This document shows, piece after piece, positions 28,899 through 43,330 of a stretch of 64,000 bases of DNA. Origin of the DNA: Bradyrhizobium diazoefficiens (lineage in GTDB: Bacteria; Pseudomonadota; Alphaproteobacteria; Rhizobiales; Xanthobacteraceae); contig NZ_CP067041.1 in the NCBI RefSeq assembly GCF_016599855.1, positions 2,666,001 through 2,730,000 of the forward strand, given 5' to 3'. Made by a program: the position numbers and the translations under genes. Position 1 is the first letter of the stretch, and each line of letters starts with the position of its first letter. The notes under the pieces are model-generated. The model had not been told where the DNA came from. It saw only the letters and a program-made list of their open reading frames with translations, and did not search any database.

Positions 28899-29159
28899 GT
28901 GAAGATCGTTTGGGGCGAGCCGAAGCGCCGAGCCAATCTCGACAAGCACGAGATGGATTTCGCTGATCTCAACGAGACCTTCTTCGACAACGCTTTGGTC
29001 TTGGGCACGTATCGCAACCGTTGGCGTGCGATAGGCATCAATATTCGCGGTGTCGTCTCGGTCATCTTTGCAACTCGCGGAACCGAGGGCATCAGCATTA
29101 TCAGCATGCGCCCGGCCAGCAAGAAGGAAAGGGAGCTCTATGAAAAAAGCCGCCGCTAA
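28899..29159 (+). CDS. brnT: BrnT-family ribonuclease toxin
   Basis: 86 residues from a GTG. The RelE-like fold of BrnT is recognisable from KIVWGEPKRRANLDKHEMDFADL, the GTYRNRWRAIG strand and the closing ISIISMRPASKKERELYEKSR. In the family the toxin cleaves RNA and stops growth. It overlaps brnA by 20 bases and precedes it, the usual toxin-first order of this type II system. The start codon sits immediately after the palindromic operator. Confidence 0.9.
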   Translation: MKIVWGEPKRRANLDKHEMDFADLNETFFDNALVLGTYRNRWRAIGINIRGVVSVIFATRGTEGISIISMRPASKKERELYEKSRR

Positions 29160-29433
29160 AAAGGGCTACACTGCGAGGGACATGCGTGCGGTGAGCGAAA
29201 ACCCGGAATGGACCAAGGGTGATTTTGCCAAGGCCAAGACTTTCGATGAGATTTTCCCGGGCATGCGGAAGGGCCGCGGTCCCAATAAAGCTCCCACAAA
29301 GCGACAGGTGACCTTACGCTTGAGCCCTTCCGTGGTGGACTATTTCAAGGCTGAGGGCCCGGGTTGGCAGAGCCGGATTGACAAAGCGCTTATCAAGGTG
29401 GTGAAGCGCAAGCGCGGCTCTGCTGCAGGCTGA
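29140..29433 (+). CDS. brnA: BrnA-family antitoxin
   Basis: 97 residues. The N terminus is lysine-rich. The middle binds toxin (ENPEWTKGDFAKAKTFDEIFPG). The C-terminal ribbon-helix-helix region RQVTLRLSPSVVDYFKAEGPGWQSRIDKAL would bind DNA as a dimer. The ATG at 29140 has a GGGAG ribosome-binding site and lies inside the end of brnT, which couples their translation. It neutralises BrnT and represses the pair. Confidence 0.9.
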   Translation: MKKAAAKKGYTARDMRAVSENPEWTKGDFAKAKTFDEIFPGMRKGRGPNKAPTKRQVTLRLSPSVVDYFKAEGPGWQSRIDKALIKVVKRKRGSAAG

Positions 29434-31372: not shown

Positions 31373-32134
31373 ATGCCGGCATCCATCCGCCAGATCCGCA
31401 CCCTCGCATCGGCCGTCCTGCTAGCAGCTGTAGGTGCGACGCTCGCCGCGTGCAGCGGCGGCGATTTCGGCCGCACCCGCGCCGACATGCGCAGCGACGA
31501 CATGCATAGCTGGCTCGGCGCCGAGGTCACCGGCAGCCTCGGCCTGAAGCCGTCGCAATTCCAGCTCACCGACGAAGAGCGCCAGCTTCGCGACCTCGCC
31601 TATCCCATGATCGAGCCGCCGCTGTCGCGGCCGGCCTGGAAGAGTGTGTTCGGCGACTACAAGGCCCTGCCGTCGCCGTGGCGACAGAAGATCGTGTTCG
31701 ATCGCACCATGTACGGGCGCACGCTGATCGATGAGCCGCATCGCTCGCACTCCTCGCGTTATGCGCAGCTGATCGAGGACGTGCGCAACGACATCACCCG
31801 CTTCGAGCCGTTCTTCGCCAGTGCGATCCGCGTCATCGATCTCGACAAGAAGCGCGAAGCCAGCATGGCCCGCGTCTCCGCGCTCTCGCCAAGAGAGAAG
31901 GCAGACGCGATCGCGCGCATGCAAGAGAACTCGCTGATCATCCAATGGGTGCAGCTATCCCTCGAGCAGCGCGTCTCGTCCTATCGCTGGGCGCTGGAGC
32001 GGCTGGTGATCCAGGCGCCCGACGGCGTGGCTGCCGACGCCGATCGCCTGATCGGCGAGCTCGCCGCCCAGACCACCAATCCGCCGGTTGCCTCGCAGCC
32101 GGCCTACGGCCGCGCGGTCGTCTCAAAGGGCTGA
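31373..32134 (+). CDS. Predicted lipoprotein, function unknown
   Basis: 253 residues. A signal peptide with a lipobox (VGATLAAC, Cys27) predicts lipid attachment. The mature part is mostly helical: ERQLRDLAYPMIEPPLSRPAWKSVFGDYK, YGRTLIDEPHRSHSSRYAQLIEDVRNDI, and a coiled region after residue 150. I do not recognise a named family. It sits between the small Arg-rich gene and the CHAT gene on the same strand; 161 bases separate it from the latter, so they need not share a transcript. Confidence 0.75.
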   Translation: MPASIRQIRTLASAVLLAAVGATLAACSGGDFGRTRADMRSDDMHSWLGAEVTGSLGLKPSQFQLTDEERQLRDLAYPMIEPPLSRPAWKSVFGDYKALPSPWRQKIVFDRTMYGRTLIDEPHRSHSSRYAQLIEDVRNDITRFEPFFASAIRVIDLDKKREASMARVSALSPREKADAIARMQENSLIIQWVQLSLEQRVSSYRWALERLVIQAPDGVAADADRLIGELAAQTTNPPVASQPAYGRAVVSKG

Positions 32135-32295: not shown

Positions 32296-35200
32296 ATGAG
32301 CACCAATTCCGGGATGCCCTTTGACGGCCGTCGAAATTCTCCGCCTTTGCGAAAGTTGCTGGCCCTTGCCGTCCTGCTCGGATCGACCGGCTCCGCCGCC
32401 GCCCTGACCAAGGAGGCCGCGCTCGAGAACTGCCGGATGACGGTCGGTAAGCCGATCGTGCAGGCCTGCATGCAGGCCCAGGGGGGCCGCAAGGCCGGGG
32501 CCGATATCGAGGGGTGCCGCGCCAAGGCTAAACCGCAGGTCAAGGCTTGCGTGCTAGCCGCCCTCAATGCCGCGAACGGACGCGCCAATGTCGCTGTCGA
32601 GGTACCGAAGGGGGAGGCGCCCAAGCTGGCACCGGGGACCGCGCTGCCGAAGGATTTCATCGCGCCGCCGCGCACCATCTCCGACATCACTGCGATCCTC
32701 GACAGTGAAAAGCCGAACGAAAAGCTGATCGCGGAGCTGAAGGCGGACGCGGATTCGACGCCCACGGGGAAGGAGCCCCGCGAGGACCTCGCCCAGTTCT
32801 ATTTCGATCGCGCCAATGCGCGCTCCCAGCTCGGACGGCTTGCCGAATCCATCACTGACGCCAACAAGGCCGTGGAAGTGGGCCGCGGGGCCGTCGGCCC
32901 GAACATGATGGGGCGATTGTTGCAATTGCAGTCGGTGCAATACGCTCGCGCAGGCGATCCCAAGCGCGCGCTGGAGATCATGCAACAGCTCTTGCGCGAG
33001 TCGGTCAACGTGGCGGGAGCGAAAGGATATCAGTTCAACGCAAACCGCTCGGTTGCGTCCATTCTCCTCCAGATGGGTGATGTCGTGCAGGCAGAAGCCT
33101 ATTTGCGTCGCAGCCTGGCGGCGATTCAGGAGCCGCGCACCAGCGGGCTTCCTGGCTGGCGGTCGTCCTATGCAAAGTTCGGACAGACCTGGGAAGGCGA
33201 AATCGAGATGACCCGCGGGATGATTTTCGAGGCACGGGGGCAGTTTGCTGAAGCCGAGGCCGCCTATCGCACCGCGGAGCTGCGTAAGAGTGCCGGCGAG
33301 AAGGCGGTATTGGAGTCGGAAAACCCGCCTGCAGAGACCCTCCTGCTGCAAGTGGTCGACAGCATGGTGTTGAACCAGGCGCGCATGAAGGCGAGGCAGG
33401 GCAGACTGGCCGAAGCCGAAGCCGACGCGCGCCGGGCGTTGTTGTCGCGCCTGAAGGACACCGGCAAGTACAATCCGGTGACGCCGCGCTTCGTGATGGG
33501 TTTGGCCGGAATCCTGGTCGACCAGGGACGTTACGACGAAGCCGAGCATCTCGGCCGCGTCGCGCTCGAGATCAACAAGACGGTCGGCGTGCCTGACGAA
33601 TCGCAATCGACCGTGCAGCTGCTCTCGCAGCTCGCCGGCATCCTGAATCTGCAGCGCAACAATGCCGAAGCCAACGACATATTTGCGCGGATCGACAAGG
33701 CGGTCGCCAATTGGGATCCGCAGCGACGCCAGGTCATCGAGCTCAATCCGGCGCGCATTTTTGCGCTCTACAATTCCGGCCAGCTCGACGCCGGCATCGC
33801 CGCCGCCGAGCAACTGGTCAAGAAGCAGATCGGGCGGGTCGGGGAGAACCATTTCGATGCGGCGTCGGCGCGCGGCACCCTGGCGATCGGATTGATGCGC
33901 GCGCGGCGCGATGCCGACGCGATCCGCGAGTTCAAGGCCGCCATTCCGATCATGATGGCGAACGCAAACGAGAACGCCGACGACGAGAACACGACCGTCA
34001 TGGCCGCGCGCAGCCAGCGGCTCCAGACCATCGTCGAAAGCTACCTCCTGCTGCTCGCGCGGGCCGAAGGCACCGGCAGCGGGGTCGGCGAGGAGACCTT
34101 CGGTCTCGCCGACGCCATCCGCGGTCGCTCGGTGCAGCAGGCGCTTGCGGCGTCAAGCGCGCGCGCGGCGGCCAAGGATGCGGCACTCGCCGAGCTCGTG
34201 CGCAAAGAACAGGACCTGACCAAGCAGGTCAACGCCCAGCTCGGCACACTGAACAACGTGCTGGCGATCCCCTCTGCGGATCGCGACGAAAAGGGAGTTC
34301 AGCAGATCCAGGCATCGATCGCGTCCATGCGCAACGAACGCGACAAGGCGCGCCGGGAGATCAAACAGAAATTCCCGGCGTATGCCGATCTCGTTTCACC
34401 CAAGCCGCCGAGCGTTGCCGAGATCCGTGCGACGCTTGCCGACAACGAGGCCATGCTGTCGTTCTATTTCGGTCAGAACGGCAGCTTCGTCTGGGCCGTG
34501 CCGAAGTCGGGGCCGGTGGCGTTCGCGGCCGTTCACGCAAATATCGGTGATATCGAGACCAAGATCCGCAAACTGCGGGAAGCGCTCGAGCCGCAGGCTG
34601 CGATGATCTCGGACATTCCGCCGTTCGATCTCAAGCTCGGCTACGAACTCTACGAGCTGTTGCTGAAGCCGATCGAGAGCGGATGGAAGCCGGCCAAGAA
34701 TTTGATCGTGGTCACGAACGGCGCGCTCGGGCTGTTGCCGCTGTCCCTGCTGCCGACCGCACCGGCGGAAGTGGCGGCGGATGAGGATCCGCTGTTTGTC
34801 GGCTACCGCAAGGTGCCATGGCTGGCCCGGACCCATGCCGTGTCGACGGTGCCGTCGGCCGCGGCCTTGCGTACGCTGCGGCAGTTGCCGCCCGGCAAGC
34901 CCGGCCGCGGCGACCTCGTGGCGTTTGGCGATCCCTATTTCAACAAGGACCAGGAGAGCGAAGCAGAAGGTGCCGGCGACAAGGTGAAGGTCGCCGATGT
35001 CGGTGGGAACGTCACGCGCGGCATGCCGCTGAAGCGTCGCAGCAGCCCGAAGCTCGACGGCGTCGACAGCGCCGAGCTCGGTCTCTTGCCCCGCCTTCCC
35101 GACACGGCCGACGAGCTCAAATCGATCGCGCTGGCGCTCCAGGCTGATCCCTCGAAAGTGCTGTTCCTCGGCAAGAGCGCGACCGAGACCGCGGTCAAGA

Positions 35201-35715
35201 CGATGAACCTTTCCGGCTTCAAGATTCTTGCCTTTGCCACGCACGGTCTCGTCCCCGGTGAGCTCAACGGCTTGACTCAGCCGGCGCTTGCCCTGTCGTC
35301 GCCAACGGTGACGGGCGAAGGCGGTGACGGCCTTCTGACCATGGAGGAGATTCTCGGCCTCAAGCTCGACGCCGATTGGGTCATTCTGTCCGCCTGTAAC
35401 ACAGGCGCCGGTGCAGGCGCCGGCGCCGAGGCGGCCTCGGGCCTTGGCCGCGCGTTCTTCTACGCCGGAACGCGTGCCTTGCTCGTGACGAACTGGTCGG
35501 TGCATTCGCAATCGGCGCGGCAGCTGGTGACCGACCTGTTCAAGCGGCAGGCGGATGATCCGAAGCTGTCGCGGAGCGAAGCGCTGCGCCAGGCCATGAT
35601 GGCCCTGGTCGACGGTCCCGGCTACCTGAACAGCGAGGGCAAGACCGAGTTCGCCTATGCGCATCCGCTGTTCTGGGCGCCGTATACGATCATCGGCGAT
35701 GGCGGCGTGCGATGA
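32296..35715 (+). CDS. Secreted TPR-CHAT domain protein (predicted periplasmic cysteine protease)
   Basis: 1139 residues. A signal peptide (LRKLLALAVLLGSTGSAAA) predicts export. Next comes a small four-Cys region (residues about 40-95). TPR repeats fill about 150-560, and a coiled-coil follows (about 620-690). The C-terminal CHAT caspase-like domain runs from about 705 to the end. The catalytic His983 (FATHGLV) and Cys1034 (LSACNTG) are both present, so it should be active as a protease. The frame is open further upstream, but that part overlaps the lipoprotein gene. The ATG at 32296 gives the signal peptide. It heads a tight four-gene group. Confidence 0.9.
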   Translation: MSTNSGMPFDGRRNSPPLRKLLALAVLLGSTGSAAALTKEAALENCRMTVGKPIVQACMQAQGGRKAGADIEGCRAKAKPQVKACVLAALNAANGRANVAVEVPKGEAPKLAPGTALPKDFIAPPRTISDITAILDSEKPNEKLIAELKADADSTPTGKEPREDLAQFYFDRANARSQLGRLAESITDANKAVEVGRGAVGPNMMGRLLQLQSVQYARAGDPKRALEIMQQLLRESVNVAGAKGYQFNANRSVASILLQMGDVVQAEAYLRRSLAAIQEPRTSGLPGWRSSYAKFGQTWEGEIEMTRGMIFEARGQFAEAEAAYRTAELRKSAGEKAVLESENPPAETLLLQVVDSMVLNQARMKARQGRLAEAEADARRALLSRLKDTGKYNPVTPRFVMGLAGILVDQGRYDEAEHLGRVALEINKTVGVPDESQSTVQLLSQLAGILNLQRNNAEANDIFARIDKAVANWDPQRRQVIELNPARIFALYNSGQLDAGIAAAEQLVKKQIGRVGENHFDAASARGTLAIGLMRARRDADAIREFKAAIPIMMANANENADDENTTVMAARSQRLQTIVESYLLLLARAEGTGSGVGEETFGLADAIRGRSVQQALAASSARAAAKDAALAELVRKEQDLTKQVNAQLGTLNNVLAIPSADRDEKGVQQIQASIASMRNERDKARREIKQKFPAYADLVSPKPPSVAEIRATLADNEAMLSFYFGQNGSFVWAVPKSGPVAFAAVHANIGDIETKIRKLREALEPQAAMISDIPPFDLKLGYELYELLLKPIESGWKPAKNLIVVTNGALGLLPLSLLPTAPAEVAADEDPLFVGYRKVPWLARTHAVSTVPSAAALRTLRQLPPGKPGRGDLVAFGDPYFNKDQESEAEGAGDKVKVADVGGNVTRGMPLKRRSSPKLDGVDSAELGLLPRLPDTADELKSIALALQADPSKVLFLGKSATETAVKTMNLSGFKILAFATHGLVPGELNGLTQPALALSSPTVTGEGGDGLLTMEEILGLKLDADWVILSACNTGAGAGAGAEAASGLGRAFFYAGTRALLVTNWSVHSQSARQLVTDLFKRQADDPKLSRSEALRQAMMALVDGPGYLNSEGKTEFAYAHPLFWAPYTIIGDGGVR

Positions 35716-35740
35716 TTGACGTGAGAGGGTTGGAAGGACA

Positions 35741-36184
35741 ATGACGCGGAATATCTTGCTAGGGCTGGTTGCGGCAGGTCTCCTGTTTTCGGGAGCGTCG
35801 CGGGCAACACAATTGATCACCGAAGAGGAGGCCAAGCTGCCGCCGCCGAAGGGCGCGGTTGCGGCTGACCGGCGCGGTATCCTGCGCGGTCCGAAGGTGG
35901 AGTTCGTCTCGCCAGGCGAGTCCGTCGCCTCTCCCTTGAAGCTCCAATTGAAGTTCGAGTCGTTCGGCGGCGCCAAGATTGATCCCGACTCGGTGAAGGT
36001 GGTATTCCTCCGCACGCCGAATGTCGATCTGACGCCCCGGGTCAAGCCGTTCGTGCACGCTGACGGAATCAACATGCAGGATGCGGAATTGCCGCCGGGC
36101 GAATACACCGTGCGGGTCGACATCAAGGACAGTGACGGGCGGCCGGGCACGGCCATTTTTACCCTCAAGGTCGCACCCAAGTGA
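35741..36184 (+). CDS. Secreted Ig-like fold protein, function unknown
   Basis: 147 residues with a signal peptide (NILLGLVAAGLLFSGASRA). The mature protein looks like one immunoglobulin-like beta sandwich: GPKVEFVSPGESVASPLKLQ, then DPDSVKVVFLRTPNVDLTPRV, then PPGEYTVRVDIKDSDGRPG. Such domains often bind partners in the periplasm. A GGAAGG ribosome-binding site precedes the ATG. It follows the CHAT gene by 25 bases, and its stop overlaps the next start (TGATG), so it is probably co-translated. Confidence 0.75.
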   Translation: MTRNILLGLVAAGLLFSGASRATQLITEEEAKLPPPKGAVAADRRGILRGPKVEFVSPGESVASPLKLQLKFESFGGAKIDPDSVKVVFLRTPNVDLTPRVKPFVHADGINMQDAELPPGEYTVRVDIKDSDGRPGTAIFTLKVAPK

Positions 36185-36378
36185 TGTGTCCTTACTGCCA
36201 GGCCGAGACTGCTGATAGCGCGCTGGTTTGCCCATCCTGTGCGCGCGACATCGCCGTACCCGCGACGCTGATTGCGGAGCGCGACGATCTCCTGCGCAAG
36301 CGGGACCAGCTGCGCGACGAGCTGATGCAGGCCAGAAACGAGGTCGAAGCCATCATGCGGCGCCGGAAGTCGCGCTGA
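36184..36378 (+). CDS. Small zinc-ribbon/coiled-coil protein
   Basis: 64 residues. Two CxxC pairs (CPYC at 2-5 and CPSC at 17-20) make a zinc ribbon. A charged coiled coil follows (AERDDLLRKRDQLRDELMQA). No signal or membrane segment is present, so it is cytoplasmic. It overlaps the stop of the Ig-like gene by one base and ends two bases before the next start. The same zinc-ribbon-plus-coil layout begins the next protein. Confidence 0.75.
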   Translation: MCPYCQAETADSALVCPSCARDIAVPATLIAERDDLLRKRDQLRDELMQARNEVEAIMRRRKSR

Positions 36379-36380
36379 CC

Positions 36381-37145
36381 ATGGAGTGTCCGTTCTGCGC
36401 CGAGACGATCAAGGACGAAGCCATCGCGTGCAAGCACTGCTCGCGCGATTTGCGCGTCGTGCGGCCGACGCTTTTGGAGATCGATGACATCGTTACCGAG
36501 CTGGACAGGCTCAGGCGCGACCTCGACCGTGTCAGCGTCCGGCTCGAGCGCTACAAGAACCCGCTGCGCTATTTCGGGACGCATGCCTTTATCTATGTCG
36601 TCGTTCCGTCCGTCCTGCTGACGGTCGCGCATATTCTCGTGACCATCACCTTCAACCTCTCGCCGATCCCGCTGCGGATCGCGTCGATTGTCATCCCGCT
36701 GCTGTTCGGGTTCGCAGCCTATCCTCTGCATCGGGTCTCGGCATTGGGGGCGTTCGTGCTGGCGTTGCTGCTCGCCAGTGTCAGCATCCAGGCGATGCTG
36801 ACGGTGACCGGACTCCACGATCATGTTCCGATCCTGCCGACGGTATGGGTCGAATGGCGCGAAGTGTTCGAATACGGTGCGAGTATCCTGCTCGCCTTCG
36901 TGTCCGGAAACATATTGGGAGTCGTGATCTTCCTGGTCTTGCCGCGCGTTCTGAGCCAGGGCGGGAAGCCCAATGCTTTCGCCTTCAGGGTGGCGCGCCT
37001 GCTCGGGCAGCATATTGGTGAGGAACAGCTCCGCCGCCGCGCGCGGCTGATCCAGGATCTCATGCAGACCGTCGGCCCGCTGGCCGGTGTCGCCGCGACA
37101 GCCGTGGGCTCGATCTATGCCGGACTGAAAGGTTTGCTCGGGTAA
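36381..37145 (+). CDS. Zinc-ribbon integral membrane protein
   Basis: 254 residues. The N-terminal ribbon has CPFC (3-6) and CKHC (17-20). A coiled-coil segment follows (IDDIVTELDRLRRDLDRVSVRL), then four to five membrane helices between about 65 and 205, and a cytoplasmic C-terminal region with a final amphipathic helix. I do not recognise a named family beyond the ribbon. It starts two bases after the small ribbon gene, so the four genes from the CHAT protein on are very probably one operon. Confidence 0.78.
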   Translation: MECPFCAETIKDEAIACKHCSRDLRVVRPTLLEIDDIVTELDRLRRDLDRVSVRLERYKNPLRYFGTHAFIYVVVPSVLLTVAHILVTITFNLSPIPLRIASIVIPLLFGFAAYPLHRVSALGAFVLALLLASVSIQAMLTVTGLHDHVPILPTVWVEWREVFEYGASILLAFVSGNILGVVIFLVLPRVLSQGGKPNAFAFRVARLLGQHIGEEQLRRRARLIQDLMQTVGPLAGVAATAVGSIYAGLKGLLG

Positions 37146-37838
37146 TCAGTCCTCGCGTTGCAGCCGCGAGAAGCGGAAATTGCAGTGGTTCGCGCCGCCG
37201 GCCAGCGTCTGTGTCCGTTCCAGATGAATGCCTCGCGTTGCATAGGCGTCGAAATCGAGCCCGCAAATGTTCGGCAAAATCTCCTTGTCGCCGTGGCGCG
37301 CGGCGAATTTGCAGAAGCCGCATGCTTTGTAGTTGATGCCGAATTCAAAACTGTCATTCGGCCCCGGCTCGACGAAATCGTAGACGAAATCCTCAGGAAA
37401 TTCTGCCTGATGGCTTTCTGTTGTGCTTTTCGCCGCCTGCTCGCGCAGCAAGGTCTGATTCTCCGGCGACATGAATTGATCTCCCGCGGCGAGACGTTTC
37501 GCCTCTGGCGCGGTGAGCAATTGCGCCTTGTAGGTTTCCCGCTCGATGTCGCGGATCACCGGCAGCGGTACACCGTGTCGCTGGAGCACACGGCCGGTTG
37601 CCATGAAGCCGGTGAGGCGCATGAAGAAATCGCTCATGCGGCTCGCGGCGCCGCCGACATAAGGCATCTGGGTGAGCACGATGGCGAACTCGTCCATCAC
37701 CTCCCGCCTGATCCCGTCGATGTCGGTGAGATACGCGCGGTCGCGCAACGTCGCCTCGGCAAGGTCAAGTCGATGGCGCATCGCCGCCTCCATGGCATCG
37801 CGATGCTGCTCGTAAAAGGGATGGATCATCTCAGCCAT
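37146..37838 (-). CDS. L-2-amino-thiazoline-4-carboxylic acid hydrolase-type protein
   Basis: 230 residues. The ATC-hydrolase family features are visible in the C-terminal half: FEFGINYKACGFCKFAARHGDKEILPNICGLDFDAYA, and the closing GGANHCNFRF. In Pseudomonas the named enzyme opens the thiazoline ring on the way to L-cysteine, but most family members are untested, so the name is a family label. It converges with the zinc-ribbon membrane gene, with no gap. Confidence 0.82.
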   Translation of the reverse strand: MAEMIHPFYEQHRDAMEAAMRHRLDLAEATLRDRAYLTDIDGIRREVMDEFAIVLTQMPYVGGAASRMSDFFMRLTGFMATGRVLQRHGVPLPVIRDIERETYKAQLLTAPEAKRLAAGDQFMSPENQTLLREQAAKSTTESHQAEFPEDFVYDFVEPGPNDSFEFGINYKACGFCKFAARHGDKEILPNICGLDFDAYATRGIHLERTQTLAGGANHCNFRFSRLQRED

Positions 37839-38751: not shown

Positions 38752-39570
38752 ATGTCTTCATATACCTCGATTTCATCCGACAAACTCTCCCGCCTGATCG
38801 GCACGTCAAACGCGCCAACGCTCATCGATGTGCGCATCGACGAGGACTTCGCGGCAGATCCGCGATTGATACCCGGCGCCACAAGACGCTCTCACCTCGA
38901 AATTCAAGACTGGGCCTCGCGCCTGACCGGGCAGTCCGTGATCGTGGTCTGCCAAAAGGGGCTGAAGCTCAGCGAAGGAACGGCCGCGTGGCTCCGCTGC
39001 GGCAAGGTTGCGGCGGAAGTGCTGGAAGGCGGCCATGTCGCCTGGAAGGAGGCGAAGCTTCCGACCGTTCCGGTCGACAAGATCCCGAGGCGAGACGGGC
39101 GGGGCCGCACGGTCTGGGTCACGCGATCGCGCCCCAAGATCGACCGTATCGCCTGTCCCTGGCTGATCCGGCGCTTCATCGATCCCACGGCTGTCTTCCT
39201 TTACGTGTCGGCTTCGGAAGTCGAAGCGACCGCTGAGCGATTCGATGCCACGCCGTTCGACATTGAAAATGTGTTCTGGAGCCACCGCGGCGAGCTCTGT
39301 ACCTTCGACGTGATGGTGAAGGAGTTCGGTCTTTCAACGCCGCCGCTGGAGCGGCTCGCGACGATGGTGCGGGCGGCGGATACGGCGCGGCTCGATCTCA
39401 GTCCGGAGGCTCCGGGCCTGCTCGCAGCCTCGCTCGGCCTGTCGCGCATGTACGACGACGACCTCGAACAGCTGAATGCAGGCATGCTGCTCTACGATGC
39501 GTTTTACCGATGGTGTCGGGATGCGACTGGCGAGACGCACAATTGGCCGACCAACAAGGTCAGGCCATGA
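38752..39570 (+). CDS. Rhodanese-ChrB domain chromate-resistance protein
   Basis: 272 residues. Residues 1-110 are a rhodanese-like domain (TLIDVRIDEDF at the start, VIVVCQKGLKLSEGTAAWLR with the loop Cys). Residues 115-270 are the ChrB C-terminal domain (RPKIDRIACPWLIRRFIDP, FDVMVKEFGL, ATMVRAADTARLDL). ChrB proteins accompany ChrA exporters and may regulate the operon, but here the usual N-terminal domain is replaced by rhodanese, so a regulatory role is doubtful. It is the first gene of the chr group. Confidence 0.88.
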   Translation: MSSYTSISSDKLSRLIGTSNAPTLIDVRIDEDFAADPRLIPGATRRSHLEIQDWASRLTGQSVIVVCQKGLKLSEGTAAWLRCGKVAAEVLEGGHVAWKEAKLPTVPVDKIPRRDGRGRTVWVTRSRPKIDRIACPWLIRRFIDPTAVFLYVSASEVEATAERFDATPFDIENVFWSHRGELCTFDVMVKEFGLSTPPLERLATMVRAADTARLDLSPEAPGLLAASLGLSRMYDDDLEQLNAGMLLYDAFYRWCRDATGETHNWPTNKVRP

Positions 39571-39670
39571 TCGGCAGGGCCCTTCGCCCTCGCTGCGACG
39601 CGCGGTCATCGTCTAGGGGCCGACGACACCGATTGAACCTGGGGCTGGGAGCAAGACCAGGAGAACGACG

Positions 39671-39904
39671 ATGCCGAAGCAAATCATCTCGTCTGCAGCC
39701 CTGCTGCTGATGATCGCGGGCGGGTTATCGCCCGCGCAGGCCCTGACCCAGGAGGAGCTTGCCGCCCGACTGCGGACGGCCGGCTACGGGCAGGTCAGCG
39801 ACATCAAGTCGACCGCCGAAGGCACGACAGCGAAGGCGATCAAGGACGGCAAGCAAGTTCGGCTCGTCGTCGACAGCAGCGGCCAGATCAAAGAGCAGAA
39901 ATGA
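39671..39904 (+). CDS. Small periplasmic PepSY-like protein
   Basis: 77 residues. A signal peptide (ISSAALLLMIAGGLSPAQA) precedes one PepSY-like unit (EELAARLRTAGYGQVSDIKSTAEGTTAKAIKDGK). PepSY domains are small periplasmic folds of unclear role. It overlaps the in-frame region of the DUF1259 gene and is read with it, as part of the chromate operon. Confidence 0.7.
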   Translation: MPKQIISSAALLLMIAGGLSPAQALTQEELAARLRTAGYGQVSDIKSTAEGTTAKAIKDGKQVRLVVDSSGQIKEQK

Positions 39905-39948
39905 GATCGGCGTCCCAACAGTCCCGAAAATCGGAAAGGAAGCGAACA

Positions 39949-40893
39949 ATGCGAAAGATGTCCGCTGTATTGATCGGCGCAGGAGCCTGCGTCGCCGTTC
40001 TCTGTGCAATTGGCCCGCAGGCGGGCGGGGATCTGCTCGCGCCCTTTGCCTCGATAGCCCAGGCGGCGGAGAGCGTCGACTGGCAGAAAGTCGACGAAAC
40101 GCTCGGCCGCAAGCCCGCCGTCTCGGACGATGTCCACCGTTACGGTTTTCCCCGTACCGATCTCTCGGTATCTTTGGACGGGGTGACGATCCAGCCGGCG
40201 CTCGCACTTGGCGGCTGGGTCGCGTTCAAGCCCGTCCATGGCGGCGCCATGGTCATGGGCGACCTTGTGTTACTGGAAACCGAGATCAATCCCGTAATGG
40301 CGAAGATGATCGCGAGCGGTCTCGAGATCACCGCCGTGCACAATCATCTGCTGCGCGCGAGCCCGGCAACTTTCTACATGCATGTCGCCGGACACGGAGA
40401 TCCCGTCAAGCTGGCCTCGGCGATCCATGATGGGCTTGCCGAAAGCAAGACCCCGCTCACCGTCGCAGCGCCGGCGAGCCCGCCACCCGCCGTCGATCTC
40501 GATACGGCCAAGCTCGACCAGATCATCGGCGTGAAGGGCCAGGCGAATGGAGGCGTGTACCAGTTCACCGTCAAGCGGCGCGACCCGATCACGGAAGAGG
40601 GCATGTCGCTGACGCCCGCCGGTGCGATGGGCGTTGCGACCGGCATCAACTTCCAGCCAACCGGCGGAGGCAAGGCGGCCATCACCGGCGACTTCGTGCT
40701 GACGGGCAAGGAGGTGAATCCGGTGATCCTGGCCCTGCGAACGCACCGCATCGAGGTGACGGCGCTGCACAGCCACATGTTGGACGAACAGCCGCGGCTG
40801 TTCTTCATGCATTTCTGGGCGAACGACGACGCCATCAAGCTCGCCGAAGGTTTGCGAGCGGCGCTCGACAAGACCGCCAGCACGAAGGGCTGA
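39949..40893 (+). CDS. DUF1259 (LppY/LpqO-type) exported protein
   Basis: 314 residues with a signal peptide ending around IAQAAES. It contains two related halves, each with a His-containing segment: EITAVHNHLLRASPATFYMHVAGHG and EVTALHSHMLDEQPRLFFMHFWAND. The repeated H-x-H and M-H pattern suggests metal binding. The family is uncharacterised. The ATG at 39949 follows an AAAGGA site; the upstream frame from 39901 is a shadow. Chromate operons in relatives often carry this gene. Confidence 0.85.
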   Translation: MRKMSAVLIGAGACVAVLCAIGPQAGGDLLAPFASIAQAAESVDWQKVDETLGRKPAVSDDVHRYGFPRTDLSVSLDGVTIQPALALGGWVAFKPVHGGAMVMGDLVLLETEINPVMAKMIASGLEITAVHNHLLRASPATFYMHVAGHGDPVKLASAIHDGLAESKTPLTVAAPASPPPAVDLDTAKLDQIIGVKGQANGGVYQFTVKRRDPITEEGMSLTPAGAMGVATGINFQPTGGGKAAITGDFVLTGKEVNPVILALRTHRIEVTALHSHMLDEQPRLFFMHFWANDDAIKLAEGLRAALDKTASTKG

Positions 40894-40942
40894 GGCAAGG
40901 TCGCAAGACCGGCGCCGACAAGAAAGCACAGGAGCCAAGGCG

Positions 40943-41539
40943 ATGACCTACCAGGTTAAACCGTTGCCGTTCGACCCAAAATCGATCAGTGGCATCTCTG
41001 AAAAAGTTCTCGTGAGCCATTACGAGAACAACTATGGCGGCGCGGTGAAACGGCTCAATGCGATCAACGCGCAACTCGCCGAGCTGGACTTCGCCAAGGC
41101 GCCGAACTTCCTCATCAACGGCCTGAAGCGCGAAGAGCTGATCGCCGCGAACTCGATGATCCTGCATGAAATCTATTTCGACGGTCTCGGCGGCGCGAGC
41201 AGGCCGGGCGGCGCTCTCGCCGAGGCGATCACGCGTGACTTCGGCAGCATCGAACGGTGGCGGAGAGAGTTTGCGGCGATGGGTAAGGCCGAGGGCGGTG
41301 GTTCGGGTTGGGTGATCCTTTCCTATTCTCCGCGCAACAAGCGGCTCGTCAATCAATGGGCCGCCGACCACACGACGACGCTTGCCGGCGGTCGTCCCGT
41401 GCTGGTGCTCGATATGTACGAGCATGCCTATCACATGGATTTCGGTGCCGCGGCAGCGCGCTATGTCGACATCTACATGGAGGCCATTCGCTGGGCCAAT
41501 GCCTCCGCGCTCTACGATCAGTATGCGAGGGAAAGCTGA
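40943..41539 (+). CDS. sodB: Iron/manganese superoxide dismutase
   Basis: 198 residues. The four metal ligands are present as His26 (SHYENNY), His75 (ILHEIYFD), Asp157 and His161 (DMYEHAYHMD). The usual HTFYW around the second His is replaced by LHEIYFDG, marking a divergent branch. It dismutates superoxide to peroxide and oxygen. There is no export signal. Its place in the chromate operon makes sense, since chromate reduction yields superoxide. Confidence 0.9.
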   Translation: MTYQVKPLPFDPKSISGISEKVLVSHYENNYGGAVKRLNAINAQLAELDFAKAPNFLINGLKREELIAANSMILHEIYFDGLGGASRPGGALAEAITRDFGSIERWRREFAAMGKAEGGGSGWVILSYSPRNKRLVNQWAADHTTTLAGGRPVLVLDMYEHAYHMDFGAAAARYVDIYMEAIRWANASALYDQYARES

Positions 41540-41550
41540 GGAGAGATGAG

Positions 41551-41745
41551 ATGAGGGGGAACTTGCGAATGAGAAACCTTGCTGTCGCAATGTCCGTACT
41601 GGCCGGTCTGCTGGCCAGCGAACAGGCGGCTCGCGCGCAAACCTGCAAGGTTTGCGTCGAACAGCGAGCGGCCTGCATGAAGAACTATGCCGGTCCCGCC
41701 TGCAAGACCGAGTACCAGACGTGTCTGAAGGCTTGCAAGAAGTGA
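41551..41745 (+). CDS. Small exported cysteine-rich protein
   Basis: 64 residues with a signal peptide (LAVAMSVLAGLLASEQAARA). The mature part of about 30 residues has six cysteines in CKVC, C, C, C, C spacing (CKVCVEQRAACMKN, then CKTEYQTCLKACKK). An AGGAGA ribosome-binding site precedes the ATG at 41551; an ATG at 41569 is the alternative. It lies between the dismutase and the next small gene. Such a peptide could bind metal or be disulfide-bonded in the periplasm. Confidence 0.65.
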   Translation: MRGNLRMRNLAVAMSVLAGLLASEQAARAQTCKVCVEQRAACMKNYAGPACKTEYQTCLKACKK

Positions 41746-41747
41746 GG

Positions 41748-42155
41748 ATGGCGGAATCGAAAAACCTACTTGCGAAGTGTCTCATCGCGGCACTCGCGAC
41801 CGGCGTCGGGGGTTCGGTTGCCCTCGACGCCGGCTCTGTCGCGGCGGCAAATCCTCGAAAGCTGACCGGGGTTGAAATTCGCAACCGTTTCGCCGGTAGG
41901 CAGCTTACTGACGAGGTTCACTATCGCCTTGTCTACGGGCAAGACGGCACGCTGCGCAGCTACGCGATGGGCGTAAAGAAGGTAGGCAAATGGGTCGTCG
42001 AGGAGGACGAGCTTTGCCTTCACCTCGGGGAGAGTGACGACGGTTGTTACCAGGTGACGCTGAGCGGCGAACAGATCGAATTGATTCCGACGGGGCTGGG
42101 CGGCTCAATCGATGGCATTTTGCAGCCCGCATATTACGGAAATGGGGACAAGTGA
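41748..42155 (+). CDS. Small exported protein of the chromate operon, function unknown
   Basis: 135 residues. The N terminus has a signal-like segment (AKCLIAALATGVGGSVALDAGSVAAA). The mature domain looks beta-rich: KLTGVEIRNRFAGRQLTDEVHYRLVYGQDG, VGKWVVEEDELCLHLGESDDGCYQVT. It starts two bases after the Cys-rich gene and its stop overlaps the chrA start (TGATG), so it is tightly coupled to the exporter. Confidence 0.65.
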   Translation: MAESKNLLAKCLIAALATGVGGSVALDAGSVAAANPRKLTGVEIRNRFAGRQLTDEVHYRLVYGQDGTLRSYAMGVKKVGKWVVEEDELCLHLGESDDGCYQVTLSGEQIELIPTGLGGSIDGILQPAYYGNGDK

Positions 42156-43330
42156 TGACGACGACAACGACGAGCACCGACAAAGCGCGAATGGGCGAGT
42201 TGGTGCGCTATTTCCTTCGGCTTGGGTGCCTGGGCTTTGGCGGGCCGGTGGCGCTGGTCGGCCAGATGGAGCGCGAACTCGTCAACGAGAAGAAGTGGCT
42301 GACGAAAGAGCAGATGCGCGAGGCCATCGCGATCTGCCAGTCGCTGCCGGGACCGCTGGCGATCCAGGTCGGGGTCTATGTTTCATATCTGCGCGCCGGC
42401 TTCTGGGGCGCCTGGGCCGGCGGCTGGGCCTTCATCCTGCCGAACTTCATTATCGTTGCCTCGCTCGGCGCACTCTATGTTTACCTCGGTGATCTCCAGC
42501 CCGTCACCGCCATCTTTTATGGGGTGAGCCCGGCGGTCATCGCGCTGATCCTGCATTCCTGCTACCGGCTTGCCAGGCTCGGTATGGAGGATTGGCTGCA
42601 ATGGGCCATTGCCGCGGTCTGCTTTGTCGTGACTGTGATCCTGCAGGCCGAGGTCGCGTTGCTGTTCATCGGCGCCGGCATCGTCGGCATTCTCTATTAC
42701 GGTTCGCTGTTCAAGCGTACGCCGGCGGCGTTGAGCGTCACCGCTCCGGTTCTGGCGCAGCTTGTGCCAACCGCGTCGAACTCGATCCTCGGAAAACTGC
42801 TGTTGTTCTTCCTCAAGGCAGGCTCGCTGACCTTCGGCAGCGGCCTCGTGATCGTGCCCTTCCTGGAGCAGGGTCTGGTGCAGCAGTTCGGTTGGCTTGA
42901 TCAAAGGCAGTTCCTGATCGCGGTCGCGATCGGGATGATCAGTCCCGGCCCGGTGGTGATCACCGCGACCTTCGTCGGCTATCTCGTTGCCGGCTTCTGG
43001 GGATCGCTGGTGTCGACCATCGGCATCTTCCTTCCGTCATTTTTGCTCGTGCTGATTGCGGCTCCTCTGCTGGCGCGGCACCGCGGCAATCCGAACGTGC
43101 AAGGCTTCGTCAAGGGCGCCTATGCCGCTGCGATCGGCACGATCCTTGGCGCCTGCGTTCTGCTCGGTCGCGTCGCGATCGGCGACTGGCTGACGGCGCT
43201 GATCGGACTTGTGTCGATCGCGATTCTGTTCCGCTGGAAGGTGAGCAATCCGCTGCTGATTGCCGCGACGGCGGCGGTCGGCCTGATCGCCTATCCGATC
43301 CTCCAGCCAGGATGGGTGATGGTGCACTAA
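42155..43330 (+). CDS. chrA: Chromate transporter ChrA
   Basis: 391 residues, the bidomain long-chain type with about ten to eleven membrane segments. Family signatures are LGCLGFGGPVALVGQMERE and EAIAICQSLPGPLAIQVGVYV in the first half, and LTFGSGLVIVPFLEQ with IGMISPGPVVITATFVGYL in the second. It exports chromate from the cytoplasm. The start overlaps the stop of the preceding gene by one base, so expression follows the operon promoter near 38650. Confidence 0.93.
   Translation: MTTTTTSTDKARMGELVRYFLRLGCLGFGGPVALVGQMERELVNEKKWLTKEQMREAIAICQSLPGPLAIQVGVYVSYLRAGFWGAWAGGWAFILPNFIIVASLGALYVYLGDLQPVTAIFYGVSPAVIALILHSCYRLARLGMEDWLQWAIAAVCFVVTVILQAEVALLFIGAGIVGILYYGSLFKRTPAALSVTAPVLAQLVPTASNSILGKLLLFFLKAGSLTFGSGLVIVPFLEQGLVQQFGWLDQRQFLIAVAIGMISPGPVVITATFVGYLVAGFWGSLVSTIGIFLPSFLLVLIAAPLLARHRGNPNVQGFVKGAYAAAIGTILGACVLLGRVAIGDWLTALIGLVSIAILFRWKVSNPLLIAATAAVGLIAYPILQPGWVMVH

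Follow-up and report, generated by a model that had tools for sequence, protein, structure and literature searches.

A conserved chromosomal module of a clan CD protease with Ig-like and zinc-ribbon membrane partners in Bradyrhizobium, and its proposed trans-envelope role

A 64,000-nucleotide stretch of the Bradyrhizobium diazoefficiens genome (assembly GCF_016599855.1, contig NZ_CP067041.1, positions 2,666,001 to 2,730,000; hereafter the window) carries four consecutive genes that form a conserved module: a TPR-CHAT protease with a predicted export signal (gene 1), an Ig-like protein (gene 2), a small putative zinc-ribbon protein (gene 3), and a putative zinc-ribbon membrane protein (gene 4). 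Judged by gene content among relatives, the constant core consists of the Ig and membrane partners, and the protease can be exchanged, being either TPR-CHAT or the caspase-like Peptidase_C14 (C14). We tentatively propose, with slightly less than even confidence, that the four genes constitute a chromosomal trans-envelope proteolytic module, the output of which is suggested to serve protein quality control. The host replicon is a 7.1-Mb single-contig genome (G000). The four open reading frames (ORFs), all on the forward strand with intergenic gaps of 25, −1 and 2 bases, are real and have the coordinates and spacing given for them in a preliminary description of this DNA (Table 1).

The same gene order is found in all 18 of the other Bradyrhizobium loci compared (L061–L078; CHAT orthologue identity at least 64%). 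Seventeen of these have gaps of −4 to +41 bases throughout, and one (L078) has one more gene inserted after the CHAT gene, with gaps of 534, 16 and 78 bases. Lack of a conserved neighbourhood in relatives was named in the preliminary description as a refuting result, and the module order is instead kept in them. All four genes are under purifying selection, with ratios of non-synonymous to synonymous substitution rates (dN/dS, relative to four orthologues) of 0.09–0.30: 0.12–0.14 for the CHAT gene, 0.09–0.19 for the Ig gene, 0.26–0.30 for the small ribbon gene and 0.09–0.15 for the membrane protein gene.

A scan of the genome collection with a gene 4 profile yielded 393 relatives, of which the best 80 loci, with flanks of up to 7 kb, were kept. 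The Ig gene is present in 80 of these 80, the small ribbon gene in 79 and a clan CD protease gene in 79—CHAT in 73 and Peptidase_C14 alone in six—with one locus lacking a protease. A second set of 56 loci, each with at least 100 gene 4 profile positions and searched within 7 kb, has the Ig gene in all 56 and a protease gene in 49 (42 CHAT, seven C14); seven have neither protease, of which three are on contigs under 6 kb, while the remaining four come from genomes that show C14 matches at other places, with full CHAT matches too in three. A CHAT match in G115 overlaps a C14 match and was counted as C14, not CHAT. The two sets overlap, with some loci from one genome and some genomes common to both. 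Within the genus, gene 4 is matched in 21 of 60 genomes (own included), by fragments only in G051 and in truncated form in G017; the short gene 4 proteins of G017 and Bradyrhizobium sp. Ghvi (L064:9889-10413 and L223), which match residues 1–140 only, probably represent a broken copy beside an otherwise complete cassette.

Protease type was placed on an unrooted tree of 71 non-redundant pairs of Ig and gene 4 proteins (60 with CHAT, seven with C14, four with none), on which it changes at least three times, 'none' being left out. Several end branches are long and the details unsure, and two separate C14 groups within the family lie on well-supported branches. The identity of C14 was checked by Pfam in seven loci. 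In G011 the CHAT gene is gone, and a 622-residue protein with a four-cysteine domain, TPRs and a caspase domain (Peptidase_C14, E-value 9e-35) is encoded beside the Ig, ribbon and membrane genes, on the opposite strand to them; the C14 proteins of L079 and L133 likewise share the four-cysteine domain of the CHAT protein. CHAT as the essential core of the module was rejected, because Peptidase_C14 stands in its place. That either enzyme can accompany an unchanged set of partners suggests their functional equivalence in this setting, and the constancy of the partners while the protease is exchanged suggests that the Ig protein is an anchor, inhibitor or substrate of the protease. On the same tree the cassette of L160, from a record named Frankia sp. 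RB7, groups inside Bradyrhizobium, and this record is probably mislabelled or contaminated.

The gene 1 protein matches the Pfam CHAT family (PF12770, clan CD) at 170.3 bits against a curated cut-off of 24 (E-value 8e-50). TPR repeats are also matched by Pfam, and the NCBIfam model FxSxx_TPR matches the TPR stretch only, at 34 bits against a cut-off of 300. The claim that His983 and Cys1034 are intact holds, both being invariant across 16 aligned homologues, and proteolytic activity is predicted from the domain and this dyad. There are five cysteines in the protein, four of them in the small N-terminal domain and the fifth catalytic. A hydrophobic stretch and an AxA motif precede residue 38, and a crude test on a redundant locus set detected a hydrophobic 12-residue core at the N-terminus of 112 of 117 CHAT proteins; relatives in G434 and G1300 carry a lipobox. 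The signal sequences thus support export of both the CHAT and the Ig protein, as had been claimed, with their location read from sequence only. The four-cysteine domain was detected in 13 of the 60 genomes searched for it, precisely the carriers of gene 4 among these 60, and all matches are inside a cassette (in larger genomes the best 106 first-look candidates were scored); between its CHAT and Ig genes G006 encodes an extra small protein, also exported, in which the domain occurs twice. Two TPR-CHAT genes lie in tandem upstream of the Ig gene in L145:1447-8133 and in L218. A second CHAT stretch in G000 (L082; C1:709386-709987) is divided over two frames and is probably a decayed gene.

Ig-type Pfam matches of the gene 2 protein (Y_Y_Y, He_PIG and CopC) are all sub-threshold. 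An AlphaFold2 model has a predicted local distance difference test score (pLDDT) of 81 and a predicted template modelling score (pTM) of 0.72, and Foldseek matches it to CopC, PKD and FN3 folds, the best match being 5icu (E-value 2.7e-4, probability 1.00), with a template modelling score of 0.42 by query length and just three matches at E ≤ 0.001. On the modelled fold, the label 'Ig-like' of the preliminary description stands. The mature protein begins with the strongly conserved LITxxEAxLP segment, which is followed by a poorly ordered linker (residues 41–50, mean pLDDT 57) and a beta sandwich. In the linker R45-G46 adjoins R49-G50-P51, with conservation of 77–100% in 22 diverse sequences. 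Orthocaspases cleave after basic residues (PMC6426788), and the Arg-Gly linker is for this reason the first candidate substrate.

Proteins 3 and 4 each have two CxxC pairs, the four cysteines of which are invariant in the alignments; this pattern supports their assignment as zinc ribbons, though the Pfam zinc-ribbon matches are under the curated cut-off, and zinc binding is predicted. A profile of gene 3 also picks up the N-terminal part of gene 4 proteins (for example at E-value 2e-12 in L079), so that gene 3 looks like a soluble copy of this region. The lack of a signal sequence in the small ribbon protein agrees with the preliminary description, as does a membrane protein with four helices, predicted from hydropathy and helix pattern. 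The best conserved part of the membrane protein is its ribbon, with a mean of 0.81 versus 0.41–0.62 elsewhere.

In 31 loci from about 21 genomes (L123–L125, L127, L128, L130, L139–L146 and 17 of L199–L234; for example L142:3498-9855) the cassette adjoins clpP and/or clpX and is co-oriented with them in all cases. The order is tig-clpP-cassette-clpX-lon as far as each stretch reaches, with clpP and clpX both visible in 26 of the 31; Tig, ClpP, ClpX and Lon were identified by Pfam. These loci include Afipia and diverged genera with gene 4 proteins 35–61% identical to that of the window, and the clp site is for this reason probably old. The tree being unrooted, we only infer the ancestral site of the cassette.

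A lipoprotein-like gene borders the window cassette on the left and an ATC_hydrolase-like gene on the right; the former has a match in each of the 36 genus genomes searched for it. G013 is homologous to the window up to about 32132 and again from 37146, with a different gene in between, and the cassette is therefore absent as a unit. Among ten cassette-less genomes both flanks are kept within the stretch in G013 and G033, and the left flank only in the other eight. There is no shift of base composition at the cassette, and no clear conserved promoter motif was seen in the alignment upstream of the CHAT gene. Cargo of a mobile element was considered and rejected: the gene 4 protein, which alone was scanned, has no match in the plasmid collection, and its 76 matches in viral contigs, from a ribbon-seeded scan, are all within residues 1–97, mostly the ribbon.

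Beyond the family, a search of 200 genomes from a single family of another class gave four gene 4 matches over the full length, each of them accompanied by an Ig gene and a protease gene, CHAT or C14. A variety of arrangements is observed. G879 and G1467 have Ig, gene 4, C14 with DUF4384, OmpA and Ig genes on one strand, with an extra C14 gene on the other; G1300 has CHAT (36% identity over 1039 residues, with the lipobox), Ig and gene 4 in the order of the window; and G1322 has Ig (seen by six-frame search), gene 4 and C14. Within the window's own class, G434 has CHAT with the lipobox followed by Ig and only the beginning of gene 4, where its contig stops, and G433 has C14, gene 4 and Ig. In that class too, an Ig gene is near genes for an OmpA protein and a caspase-like protein in G472 (no Pfam caspase match; E-value 1e-5 to the C14 profile), and with those for a trypsin-like TPR protease and a DUF4384 protein in G449, while a second Ig copy in G162 is beside a C14 gene, with no gene 4 match. 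A partial membrane-protein match in G684 gave no module on gene calling, its 554-residue frame itself not having been studied. In L120:7247-12230 the companions of an Ig-like gene encode a GNA1162-like lipoprotein, a DUF4384 protein and a protease of TPR-trypsin type, so that the Ig partner may there serve a serine protease.

We suggest the following mechanism for the trans-envelope module. Several features indicate export of the protease and Ig protein to the envelope: their signal sequences, the CHAT forms with a lipobox, the pairing of cysteines and, in the distant form, an OmpA partner encoded in the same operon (G879 and G1467). On the periplasmic side of the inner membrane, the protease would be held by the Ig and membrane proteins, and its four-cysteine domain and TPR solenoid would detect envelope protein that is damaged or foreign. 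Once activated, the protease would cut the Ig partner, most likely at the conserved linker R45-G46; this would alter the state of the membrane protein, and the cytosolic ribbons, one in the membrane protein and the other in the small ribbon protein, would relay the signal inwards. Protein quality control is suggested as the output because the cassette sits between clpP and clpX in many relatives. A wider claim would be that of a hitherto undescribed 'caspase relay' family in two proteobacterial classes, in which a periplasmic CHAT or C14 protease cuts the Ig partner and signals through the ribbon membrane protein to ClpXP, Lon and trigger factor; in this general form we think it unlikely.

Several observations weigh against the proposed module and mechanism. 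The 80-locus set is the best of 393 relatives and is biased to near kin. About two thirds of the genus lack the module, which is therefore not essential, and Ig profile searches matched five of 289 genomes class-wide (own included) and 12 of 398 in the phylum, of which 10 are of the window's genus (own included); with so few matches the module must be called sparse beyond the family. In the class of G879, nine of 274 genomes gave a match to the membrane-protein profile, at full length in G879 only, and in its family 11 of 200 did, at full length in four. The small ribbon is missing from some loci (L125, G1300), and L119, L120 and L353 have an Ig gene without a membrane-protein match. The window cassette is not at the clp locus, and at that locus the stretch from clpP to clpX lacks a protease gene in L123, L127 and L216, which come from two genomes; L123 has a C14 gene beyond lon. 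The model of the membrane protein is weak (pLDDT 70, pTM 0.44), and its putative topology is drawn from hydropathy and the even number of helices. R45 is present in 77% of the 22 Ig proteins and is hence not universal, and in the cassette, Pfam and NCBIfam searches of the four proteins revealed neither a sigma nor an anti-sigma factor, nor a kinase.

The module could instead be a processing or assembly machine for the constitutive maturation or clearance of certain exported proteins, with the Ig and membrane proteins as anchor and chaperone and no relay. Purifying selection and the clp neighbourhood would fit this role, as would two loci in which Ig and protease genes occur although no membrane-protein match is seen: L353, where the protease is C14, and L120, which has a trypsin-like protease together with a DUF4384 protein and a C14 match that is weak; a periplasmic anchor, however, requires neither a ribbon that is the best conserved part of the protein nor a related soluble ribbon as a separate gene, and we regard this role as rather doubtful. 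Secretion of the protease to act on neighbours or a host, with partners that secrete or restrain it, is very improbable: the CHAT protein has a predicted export signal, and outside-cell roles have been suggested for some bacterial metacaspases in parts of PMC3501461, but the lipoprotein CHAT forms and OmpA partners indicate retention in the envelope, and there is no secretion-system gene among the recognised cassette genes, the neighbours not having been searched for them.

Phage defence or programmed cell death, in which infection or breach would activate the protease and the cell would be killed or arrested—perhaps via a freed glycine-rich C-terminal helix of the membrane protein—would account for the patchy presence and for the absence as a unit in G013, and protease exchange resembles that of conflict systems; CHAT and caspase-like enzymes are also named as defence effectors in PMC10907252 and PMC9729208. 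PADLOC matches of the four proteins are nevertheless weak (best E-value 0.018), and the ten flanking proteins gave one match at E ≤ 0.001, a histidine kinase through its ATPase domain, on which grounds a defence island was rejected. No Cas model is among the matches of the four or the ten flanking proteins, as a Cas7-11/gRAMP partner would give, and no EAD adaptor or NTPase partner of STAND/MoxR conflict systems is among the Pfam matches of the four. The plasmid and viral results, the co-oriented clp site across diverged genera and the even base composition also argue against defence, which we consider improbable. Of the earlier interpretation of an envelope signalling or defence system, the export of the protease and of the Ig protein, the membrane nature of the gene 4 product and the conserved neighbourhood are supported; the defence half finds no support in the PADLOC, plasmid and viral results, and CHAT proves replaceable by C14.

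The usual reading of CHAT and caspase-like proteases in bacteria is that of intracellular enzymes for defence or death. A conserved envelope module would be a different job for them and would give them a defined partner set. The Ig partner is the first place to look for targets of periplasmic bacterial caspases, and the clpP-clpX location is a concrete, testable link to protein quality control.

Table 1. Coordinates of the module, its parts and the flanking genes in the window.
Feature	Position	Strand	Basis
TPR-CHAT clan CD cysteine protease (gene 1), 1139 aa, N-terminal signal sequence	32296..35715	+	ORF, Pfam, alignment
Four-cysteine N-terminal domain of CHAT protein, residues ~38-100; Cys46, 58, 74, 85	32407..32595	+	
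TPR region of CHAT protein; Pfam TPR stretches between residues ~166 and ~549	32791..33942	+	Pfam
CHAT peptidase domain, residues 781-1135	34636..35700	+	Pfam
Catalytic His983 codon (FATHG)	35242..35244	+	alignment
Catalytic Cys1034 codon (SACNTG); sole Cys outside N-terminal domain	35395..35397	+	alignment
Exported Ig-like partner (gene 2), 147 aa; LITxxEAxLP segment, linker, beta sandwich	35741..36184	+	
Small predicted zinc-ribbon protein (gene 3), 64 aa, charged helix, no signal sequence	36184..36378	+	
Predicted zinc-ribbon membrane protein (gene 4), 254 aa: ribbon, long helix, four hydrophobic helices, C-terminal helix	36381..37145	+	
Lipoprotein-like flanking gene, left border of cassette site; outside module	31373..32134	+	
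ATC_hydrolase-like flanking gene, right border of cassette site; outside module	37146..37838	-	Pfam

Elsewhere in the window, an apparent chromate-resistance cluster at 38752-43330 comprises a ChrB-like gene, a DUF1259 protein gene, one more ORF and a chromate transporter gene (Pfam), and a BrnT-type toxin gene lies at 28899-29433 (Pfam BrnT_toxin, E-value 8e-16), followed by a small ORF that may be the antitoxin.

The DegS-RseA-ClpXP envelope-stress relay consists of a periplasmic protease, a membrane partner and a cytosolic Clp step, and this layout serves as a working analogy for the module; the module protease is of clan CD, whereas DegS is a PDZ serine protease, and no sigma or anti-sigma gene is recognised in the cassette. 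PMC10028731 mentions this relay as well. Csx29, the TPR-CHAT protein of type III-E systems, is a cytoplasmic protease with no export signal. In Craspase (gRAMP/Cas7-11 with Csx29), Csx29 cleaves the nearby-encoded Csx30, an inhibitor of a sigma factor, according to parts of PMC10028731. Both systems have a TPR-CHAT protease, and regulated cleavage of a nearby-encoded partner is known for Craspase and proposed here, but the module has an export signal, a four-cysteine domain and Ig-fold and zinc-ribbon membrane partners, and neither a Cas protein nor a sigma factor is recognised in the window cassette.

HetF of Anabaena, a divisome component with CHAT, transmembrane and TPR regions, has its CHAT region in residues 1–555 and one transmembrane segment, and is cytoplasmic once this segment is deleted (passages of PMC8406250). 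It resembles gene 1 as a membrane-associated CHAT/TPR protein of bacterial physiology rather than CRISPR, but those passages describe no Ig or ribbon partners. Bacterial metacaspase operons include OmpA in 14 of 217, and some Peptidase_C14 proteins have an N-terminal helix or signal sequence (parts of PMC3501461); these operons resemble the G879 and G1467 form of the module, but neither an Ig partner nor a ribbon membrane protein is named in those parts, and the word CHAT does not occur in the main text. No description of the four-gene combination was found in the open-access literature, all bioRxiv preprints and most subscription papers lying outside it, and within that literature the term 'undescribed system' remains apt. 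Craspase (PMC10028731, PMC9729208) and HetF are the nearest CHAT systems compared, and in the portions of their descriptions considered both differ from the module in location and partners; as far as sequences indicate, the module is a clan CD protease system distinct in both respects, with a proposed function.

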